This document shows, piece by piece, positions 481 to 37,546 of a stretch of 64,000 nucleotides of DNA. Numbering within the stretch: position 1 is the first letter of the stretch; each line of letters starts with the position of its first letter. Source of the DNA: Providencia alcalifaciens (lineage in GTDB: Bacteria > Pseudomonadota > Gammaproteobacteria > Enterobacterales > Enterobacteriaceae); NCBI RefSeq assembly GCF_020271745.1, contig NZ_CP084296.1:3224001-3288000 (forward strand). Direction: 5' to 3'. The position numbers were made by a program, and so were the translations under genes. Below the pieces are notes generated by a model. It saw only the letters and a list, made by a program, of their open reading frames with translations. It made no database searches and was not told where the DNA came from.

Positions 481-509
481 AAAAAAAGGCCAACTCAAAT
501 GAGTTGGCC
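481..509 (-). terminator. rho-independent terminator of ryhB
   Basis: Perfect 10-bp inverted repeat GGCCAACTCA / TGAGTTGGCC at 488-509. On the minus strand it is followed by seven T residues (487-481). On the plus strand no T-run follows, so the direction is minus. Confidence 0.85.
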
Positions 510-577
510 AGCTAAATTGGAAGCAATGTGAGCAATGTCGTTGTGAAAAGACCAAGTAATTTACTCAACTATTCACG
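481..577 (-). ncRNA. ryhB: RyhB small regulatory RNA
   Basis: The minus strand from 540 to 519 reads CGACATTGCTCACATTGCTTCC, in two halves identical to the conserved seed core of enterobacterial RyhB (CGACATTGCTC then ACATTGCTTCC). It is followed by a strong GC-rich hairpin (509-488) and a run of seven T (487-481), the Hfq-binding terminator typical of this RNA. A sigma70-like promoter overlapped by a Fur-box-like sequence lies just upstream and predicts a start near 577, giving about 97 nt; E. coli RyhB is about 90 nt. Known role: made when Fur is inactive (low iron), pairs with Hfq's help to mRNAs of iron-using proteins and lowers their expression. The 5' end is inferred from promoter spacing. 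The core occurs again in complementary form in the hemA leader (36249-36265). Confidence 0.9.
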
Positions 578-35285: not shown

Positions 35286-35953
35286 TTTTTCAGTGTCCAA
35301 CTATCCATTTTTAACTTGATGACTTTATCCCCTTGCTTGAGCTCCATGTGGTTTGGCAGCATCGGCGAGGTTTTGGTATCGTAAGAGAGATAATCCAATT
35401 TCCATGTTTCGCCATTGATTTTAAACGTCACGGATTTGAGCAGGTGGTTGCTGTCGAGAGTGTATTCAGTGGCTCGCCCCGGTGAACCGACTAACCAAGC
35501 GGTGAGATCATCAATGGGGATATCCATACCTGTTAACTGATAAATTAATTCACTTGGCACATCACTCATGTGAGTTTGCCCATCTTTAGTGGTTAATTTG
35601 GCTAAATCAGGTTCTACACTGAGTTCCAGTTCACGCGAGCCTAATGGATTAGTCAGCAATAAACGGTATTTTTCTGGAGTATATTGCTGCCAGAAAAACT
35701 TCGCGTAAGTTTTGGTTTCTGTTCCGGTACCTTGACCCCCAATGTACACAAAGGAGCCGCGAGTTTGATAATCACGCAGTTCAATCACTTGTGATTGGTG
35801 GGCAGTCCACTGTGCATCTGTTGAAGATGAAGTGCCTTTCGTGGTGTCTTGAGAGGTAGTCACACAGGCAGTCAGCAGCAAGCAGGAAAGGGGCATTAAT
35901 CGCCAAAAGTTTCTGGCTGGGCGCATAAACGACAGAGCTGAAGAAAGTTGCAT
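35282..35953 (-). CDS. lolB: Outer membrane lipoprotein LolB
   Basis: 223 residues from ATG 35953. The signal peptide ends in the lipobox LLTAC, then a Ser/Thr linker and the LolB barrel: [37 protein letters not shown] and [20 protein letters not shown]. It receives lipoproteins from LolA and inserts them in the outer membrane. The N-terminal region before the lipobox is longer than in E. coli, so ATG 35926 is another possible start. Divergent from hemA. Confidence 0.93.
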
Positions 35954-36283
35954 ATCGGTTCTCAAAAGATAATTTTCAGGAATATTGCGCTAATCTGTAG
36001 TGGTTATCAATGAAAACATACTAAAAAATAGGGAATTTGCTTTCTGTGCCAAATAGCGGCATCCTTGATGCATCTCATTGATATTGATATCAGACAGTCC
36101 GATAATCAACGTAAATTTTGGTATGCATCATCTTTCTGATTGTTGATGATAGGCTACCCGTAGAAACAGACGCGTTAATCATCTACAATATACGAATATA
36201 AATCGCAGTAATGAGCTAGGTTGCTAGTATCATTCTGACAAATAAATTAGCAATGTGAGCAATGTGAGTAAGTCGTAAGCACA
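35954..36283. other. lolB-hemA divergent intergenic region
   Basis: 330 bases holding both promoters and the hemA leader. A near-palindrome TGATATTGATATCA lies at 36079-36092. The last 35 bases before hemA contain the RyhB-complementary segment (listed separately). No gene is seen. Confidence 0.5.
36249..36265 (+). promoter_or_regulatory. Candidate RyhB target site in the hemA mRNA leader
   Basis: AGCAATGTGAGCAATGT is identical to plus-strand 522-538, i.e. the exact complement of the RyhB core. It allows 17 uninterrupted Watson-Crick pairs ending 19 nt before the hemA AUG, next to the ribosome-binding region. The sequence is two copies of GCAATGTGA. Confidence 0.65.
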
Positions 36284-37546
36284 ATGACCCTATTAGCCTT
36301 AGGCATTAATCATAAAACGGCACCAGTGGCTTTGCGTGAGCAAGTCGCTTTTGGTCCTGAAAAAATCGACCACGCACTTGAGGAGTTACTGAAACAGCCT
36401 CAAGTGAGTGGCGGCGTTGTGCTGTCTACCTGTAACCGAACTGAACTGTATCTCAGCCTTGAATCCCAAGAAAAAGCGCAGGAACAGTTAACTAAATGGT
36501 TATGTGATTTTCACGGGATCACCGCCAAAGATCTCCAACCTAGCCTTTATTGGCACCAAGATGCGCGCGCAGTCAGCCATCTTATGCGTGTGGCCAGTGG
36601 GTTAGATTCGTTGGTTCTAGGTGAGCCGCAAATCCTCGGTCAAGTGAAAAAGGCGTTTGCGCTTTCGCAAGATACTCATTCTCTATCTAGCGAATTAGAG
36701 CGCTTATTCCAAAAATCGTTTTCCGTGGCTAAACGTGTGCGAACCGAAACTGATATCGGGGCGAATGCGGTTTCTGTCGCATTTGCAGCTTGTACGCTAG
36801 CAAGGCAAATTTTCGAATCACTCAAACATTTGAATATTTTGTTAGTCGGTGCAGGGGAAACCATCGAATTAGTGGCGCGTCATTTGCGTGAGCATGGCGT
36901 GCAAAAAATGATGATAGCTAACCGAACGCTAGAACGTGCCGAACTTCTCGCCAAAGAAGTGAACGCTCAAGTTATCTCATTAGCAGATATCGATAACCGT
37001 TTAGCTGAAGCGGATATTGTGATTAGTTCAACGGCTAGCCCATTGCCAATTATTGGTAAAGGGATGGTCGAGCGTGCAATGAAAGCACGCCGTAGTAAAC
37101 CTATGTTATTGATTGATATCGCAGTTCCTCGTGATATCGAGCAGGATGTAGAAAAACTCAGAGATGTTTATCTCTATACTGTTGATGATTTGGAATCCAT
37201 CATTGCCCAAAACTTGGCACAACGTAAAGCTGCCGCGGTTGAAGCGGAATTTATTGTTGAGCAAGAAAGCAGCCATTTTATGGATTGGTTGCGCTCACAA
37301 GCCGGAGTCTCTACAATTCGCGAATACAGAGAGCAGGCGGAAGCAATTCGGGCAAGCATGACCGAGAAAGCACTTGCAGCCATTGCCCAAGGTGCCAACC
37401 CTGAGCAAGTGATTATGCAGCTATCACAACAGTTAACCAACCGCCTGATCCACGCTCCGACTAAATCTTTGCAGCAAGCTGCGGGAAATGGGGATGTTGA
37501 GCGTCTAAATCTACTTAGGGACAGCTTAGGGCTGGACCATCAATAA
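36284..37546 (+). CDS. hemA: Glutamyl-tRNA reductase
   Basis: 420 residues, full length. The catalytic Cys50 is in [27 protein letters not shown] and the Rossmann loop [17 protein letters not shown] (~residues 185-200) follow, and the C-terminal dimerisation helix is intact. It reduces Glu-tRNA to glutamate-1-semialdehyde, the first committed and regulated step of haem synthesis. First gene of a run hemA-prfA-prmC-sirB1-kdsA-yhcC. The leader carries a perfect match to the RyhB core, suggesting repression under iron starvation. The ribosome site is weak. Confidence 0.97.

Follow-up and report, generated by a model that had tools for sequence, protein, structure and literature searches.

In Escherichia coli, the iron-starvation small RNA (sRNA) RyhB pairs with sodB mRNA at or near the translation start, and its targets also include sdhC, fumA and iscS. 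Li et al. are said to have described, in 2014, an effect of E. coli RyhB on hemB and hemH. A RyhB target table in PMC5364647 contains hemB, hemH and sodB and has no entry for hemA. According to PMC8913508, RyhB lowers hemB and hemH in E. coli, and both genes are cited as RyhB-regulated in the discussion of PMC12607789. The latter paper describes IsrR, an iron-starvation sRNA of Staphylococcus aureus under Fur control, which binds the hemA mRNA and reduces its translation; in a fur mutant, the drop of a hemA reporter depends on isrR. Here we describe the hemA leader in a stretch of 64,000 nucleotides (nt) from Providencia alcalifaciens (NZ_CP084296.1, forward-strand positions 3,224,001 to 3,288,000), referred to as the window and numbered from its first letter. 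This leader is complementary to the core of RyhB. Judging by its sequence and conservation, it is quite likely that RyhB targets hemA directly, and in Providencia specifically, with repression probably acting on the initiation of translation.

The predicted interaction shares with the E. coli targets, such as sodB, the sRNA family, its core and a pairing position at or near the translation start. Unlike those targets, the hemA site is restricted to Providencia; its uninterrupted pairs number 12-17, and as many as 20 if a bulge is allowed. RyhB lowers haem-pathway genes in E. coli, but the steps affected in the papers cited above, those of hemB and hemH, are later ones. IsrR, as portrayed in PMC12607789, is an iron-starvation sRNA acting on hemA in a different phylum and operon, which makes it a convergent case. 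A previous sequence-only reading of the window had stated that direct RyhB-hemA pairing was not known to it as an established target. This agrees with the titles, abstract openings and passages of open-access papers that our searches brought up, none of which reports such pairing; that is not proof of its absence. The leader would add a target to a known regulator rather than define a new kind of system. The elements involved are as follows.

36284..37546, plus strand: hemA, glutamyl-tRNA reductase (420 amino acids (aa); TIGR01035, 516 bits)
36249..36265, plus strand: RyhB-complementary site, register 1, at -35 to -19 relative to the hemA ATG; 17 perfect pairs
36257..36276, plus strand: RyhB-complementary site, register 2, at -27 to -8; 15 pairs (one G-U), a 1-nt bulge, then GTCGT
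481..547, minus strand: RyhB homologue of the type with a GGCCAAC terminator stem (RF00057, 52.5 bits, E 4.4e-9)
519..539, minus strand: RyhB core GACATTGCTCACATTGCTTCC, the segment that would pair with the hemA leader; this 21-mer is present in 70 of 72 Providencia RyhB loci

Scanning of the whole window bore out the identity claimed in the sequence-only reading between 36249-36265 and the RyhB complement at 522-538. Both plus-strand copies of AGCAATGTGAGCAATGT are exact, the RF00057 match to the minus-strand homologue covers 522-538, and no third copy was found in the window with up to three mismatches allowed. The 3' end of the 17-mer was measured at -19, matching the 19 nt to the hemA AUG given before. 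The RyhB match itself is full-length (1-67), with core and terminator stem included, and lies 2.5 bits below the gathering score of 55; its predicted minimum-energy fold leaves 14 of the 17 core bases unpaired. In the genome (4,196,542 bases, one contig) the 15-base core GCAATGTGAGCAATG has four exact copies, namely three ryhB genes and the hemA leader, while the reversed control pattern has none. Allowing up to two mismatches gave 23 matches, versus three for the reversed control. The 17-mer match is real and, near the hemA start, far beyond chance, a property expected of a direct target. With ryhB and hemA set aside, 19 of the 23 relaxed matches are left. Among these, one extends across the start of nth (endonuclease III), a second across that of an open reading frame (ORF) of 98 aa (L152), a third lies 53 nt upstream of a 102-aa ORF (L158) and a fourth about 30 nt inside an ORF (L143); by a simple ORF scan, the others are deeper within ORFs or away from them. 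The nth start carries TGTGAGCAATG, 11 nt complementary to RyhB (L156:1476-1545; G000:C1 about 3485942). With up to one mismatch, a pattern around this sequence occurs in 17 of 24 Providencia genomes, where matches in the other genomes were not checked as nth, and it may reflect coding overlap with an upstream gene.

This genome has three RyhB matches (72.3, 52.5 and 51.6 bits), situated at 481-547 of the window, G000:C1:3195574-3195662 and G000:C1:1427830-1427896, and the 17- and 21-nt cores of the window copy are the same in the other two. Two of the copies are about 29 kb apart in opposite orientation. Across 24 Providencia genomes we found 72 RyhB loci, three in each but four in G007 and two in G019, which fall into three recognisable types; the 17-nt core is present in 71 loci and the 21-nt core in 70. 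At least three matches were thus found in 23 of the 24 genomes, and four each in G129 and G246 (genus g107). Upstream of the window RyhB lies a AAATGAGAATRGTTATCTTTTA-like stretch that recurs in most orthologues. We take this stretch, unscored, to be Fur-box-like; the boxes of the other two genome copies appear clearer, and Fur-box-like sequences presumably precede all three Providencia types.

To gain insight into conservation, hemA leaders from 24 Providencia genomes including this one were compared (22 distinct leaders; L066, in which the start motif was not found, G027 and lower-ranked hemA matches were left out). All 24 contain a RyhB-complementary element, so that the site is kept in close relatives, a point on which the sequence-only reading had made its proposal depend. 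With G-U pairs allowed, the longest ungapped complement measures 17 nt in 12 genomes, 15 in seven, 14 in four and 12 in one. Averaged over pairs of leaders, identity is 0.91 in the 12-nt stretch from -35 to -24, 0.85 for -35 to -19 and 0.93 over the first 30 hemA coding bases; at -88 to -42 it is 0.56, and there are many insertions and deletions there. Register 2 consists of GAGCAATGTGAGTAA followed by GTCGT: 15 positions are paired, one RyhB base is skipped, and GTCGT pairs with RyhB ACGAC. Alignment of 12 of the 24 leaders revealed a single AATGTGAG block that is the same in all of them and immediately precedes the tail, and an optional 9-nt unit upstream of it; the GTCGT tail is present in most species. 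Judged from this alignment, the genus-wide site is the ATG-proximal unit, 36257-36276 in the window, and the 17-mer represents a further register, which this clade owes to one more 9-nt repeat upstream.

The internal repetition had been said to create two alternative registers, and Providencia species indeed differ in the register that they keep. Several leaders have a single repeat unit. In five P. rettgeri-like leaders the upstream repeat is mutated and register 1 broken, with register 2 and the GTCGT tail kept; five P. stuartii-like leaders are without the tail, yet offer 17 perfect pairs. In the G019 leader, a C of the core is replaced by T, and this position can still form a G-U pair. RyhB complementarity thus outlasts register changes, which is what selection for pairing predicts; these changes were not counted as independent events, and no tree was built. 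A captured ryhB fragment was considered as a source of the site and rejected. By eye, leader and ryhB have no similarity beyond the pairing region, which fits selection for pairing and not a captured fragment. In Providencia rettgeri RB151 (L060/L078) the hemA frame is interrupted near its start (1259-nt match, internal TGA), either by a sequencing error or by a real frameshift.

Pairing strength was estimated with a simplified sliding-window script, a stand-in for IntaRNA that takes only the ViennaRNA duplex energy and the mRNA opening energy into account. Each leader was scored against the RyhBs of its own genome that have the exact 17-nt core (L201, with a changed core, was left out). Over the 71 combinations, the hybrid energy ranged from -20.9 to -38.8 kcal/mol and the total from -18.0 to -31.7 kcal/mol. 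For the leader of this genome, none of 1000 dinucleotide shuffles reached the observed -25.7 (lowest shuffle, -18.7 kcal/mol), and for the weakest leader, that of G019, none of 1000 reached -18.0 (lowest, -17.2 kcal/mol). With 25 shuffles per leader, the lowest value for any Providencia leader was -16.7 kcal/mol. Among 59 ORF starts in the window (at least 100 aa) hemA ranks first, with -25.7 versus -16.3 kcal/mol for the next; in the same genome sodB scored -11.0 and the bystander sodA -5.4 kcal/mol. The hemA score is well above that of the known target sodB, but it is not the genome's one strong score.

Two further features of the leader were recorded.

36161..36189, plus strand: probable hemA promoter from a consensus scan (-35-like TAGAAA, 17-nt spacer, -10 TACAAT)
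36243..36248, plus strand: A/U-rich conserved stretch directly upstream of the site (identity 0.85, versus 0.56 further upstream in the leader)

The -10 box (36184-36189), from which we estimate a transcription start near 36196, is upstream of the RyhB site, and the promoter segment TCATYTACAATA is present in 24 of 24 Providencia leaders, with an identity of 0.95 at -106 to -93. None of the four consensus promoter matches in 35900-36400 lies downstream of the site. Transcription starting downstream of the site, named in the sequence-only reading as a way in which the proposal would fail, is therefore not what the predicted promoters suggest. The conserved promoter box and the genus-wide conservation together support reading the leader as a RyhB target. 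The A/U-rich stretch is a possible contact for Hfq or ribosomal protein S1. A strong Shine-Dalgarno sequence was not seen in the leader, and an Rfam scan of 36000-36400 gave, as regards other riboregulators, just a weak antisense RyhB match (18.8 bits, E 0.47). The gene lolB lies divergently upstream of hemA and prfA downstream (TIGR00019, 577.8 bits).

Outside Providencia, 62 hemA loci (32 from a set of 44, plus 25 and 5, with overlaps) were analyzed, including Moellerella, Xenorhabdus, Arsenophonus and Kosakonia. The set of 25 (L111-L135) was taken from 212 genomes in which hemA was matched, and it repeats some genomes of the other sets: L111 and L079 are identical, and 1200 coding bases agree between L112 and L083 and between L113 and L091. 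No comparable RyhB site was found in these 62 loci. With the core region of the window RyhB used for every genus, rather than each genus's own RyhB, duplex totals were -2.0 to -11.4 kcal/mol, versus -18.0 to -27.4 kcal/mol for Providencia leaders scored against the same region. A strict Providencia-leader pattern matched four of 295 family genomes, which are all four Providencia in that sample; this pattern includes the Providencia start context and hence is not a fair test of other genera, whereas the energy comparison is. RyhB was found in 12 of 12 genomes searched from ten other genera (31 matches). Its loci there were compared in view of a compensatory change outside Providencia, and the 17-nt core is intact in 27 of 30 of them. 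The three exceptions are a changed core in Moellerella (L238), a weak match (L239) and an incomplete record (L232). The regulator, with the same core, is therefore older than the site, which looks like a Providencia acquisition.

Morganella morganii KT is stated, in a passage of PMC3521468, to have a single ryhB. The Moellerella leader (L079/L111, -36 to -17) reads AGCAAT, seven other bases and ATGTCGT, with the ends of the RyhB complement correctly spaced; it is possibly a remnant or a precursor of the site, or a chance resemblance. We do not claim it as a RyhB target, its total of -11.4 kcal/mol being in a range that shuffled Providencia leaders reach. In seven hemA genes from four genera (L119, L121, L122, L124, L125, L126, L134) the start codon is part of GAAGCAATG, which matches RyhB over 9 nt and is placed much as in sodB; it might be an independent contact of RyhB with hemA, but is weak when taken alone.

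We propose the following course of events, in which pairing in the cell, its sign and its mechanism are inferred from sequence and conservation. When iron is scarce, presumably under Fur control, the three RyhB paralogues would be made. Transcription of hemA would run through the site, and the exposed core shared by the paralogues would pair with the leader at about -35 to -8, via either of the two overlapping registers. The duplex would reach into the margin of the 30S footprint and, when formed in register 2, also overlap the weak ribosome-binding region, so that translation of glutamyl-tRNA reductase would probably be lowered; given the lack of a strong Shine-Dalgarno sequence, it would plausibly hinder 30S loading. 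Decay of the mRNA would likely follow the drop in translation. With no iron available for insertion, porphyrin synthesis would be curtailed at the committed step, and haem production probably switched down when iron is short.

Several observations weigh against this proposal. Because the site is confined to a single genus, its 24 genomes do not count as independent, and with a RyhB core that is nearly constant, compensatory double changes cannot be seen. Insertions and deletions bring identity in the global alignment down to 0.55 for the tail at -18 to -8, and the adjacent conserved A/U-rich box is not accounted for by RyhB pairing. Nor does hemA stand out by energy alone, since the nth start in the same genome reaches -22.4 kcal/mol (hybrid, -28.3 kcal/mol) over -21 to +3. 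Finally, GUCGU (36272-36276) can pair with the start AUGAC (36284-36288), and RyhB bound in register 2 would open this start-codon hairpin, which could argue for activation of hemA rather than repression. Of the 24 Providencia leaders, 18 are predicted to form this 5-bp hairpin, at -2.7 to -3.5 kcal/mol. However, the other six all keep the RyhB site, four having no hairpin there and two a different one of -0.6 kcal/mol. In addition, the duplex covers about -30 to -8, the landing zone of the 30S subunit, more haem synthesis without iron makes little sense, and the analogous IsrR represses hemA in the S. aureus experiments described in PMC12607789. We regard activation as unlikely.

Slightly less probable still is that the element is kept for translation independently of RyhB, as AUG-stop mini-ORFs (ATGTGA, ATGTAG, ATGTAA) or as an A/U-rich standby or S1 site. 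An ATG-stop occurs at least once in all 24 leaders and twice in 13 of them, with TGA, TAG or TAA as the stop, and conservation of the neighboring A/U-rich box would suit a standby site. However, ATGTGA is in any case contained in the RyhB complement. The RyhB-matching bases on either side, AGC...AGC(AA) and GTCGT, would not be required for a start-stop pair alone, and the five P. rettgeri-like leaders have lost the upstream start-stop (CTGTAA) and kept 15 pairs. A chance match amplified by a short tandem repeat and inherited by common descent would suit the repetitive site and a genus that is one clade, in which 24 genomes are not 24 independent trials, but is very improbable given that the 15-mer is common to hemA and ryhB genes only, that the leader further upstream has diverged, that pairing survives register shifts and that hemA leads the window's ORF starts.

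We also considered, as a rather doubtful extension of repression by RyhB, that hemA mRNA acts back on the sRNA. The near-perfect docking site with its two registers might consume both RNAs upon pairing, and hemA transcription would then set how much RyhB is left for other iron-sparing targets; if so, haem demand would tune the whole iron-sparing response. If hemA is a direct RyhB target, the committed step of haem synthesis would be under direct RyhB control across a genus, through a site predicted to bind RyhB far more strongly than does sodB of this genome. Enterobacteria and staphylococci would then have converged, with unrelated iron-starvation sRNAs, on the same haem-pathway target. Providencia, with three RyhB paralogues and species-specific registers, would offer a natural experiment on how an sRNA target site originates and shifts.
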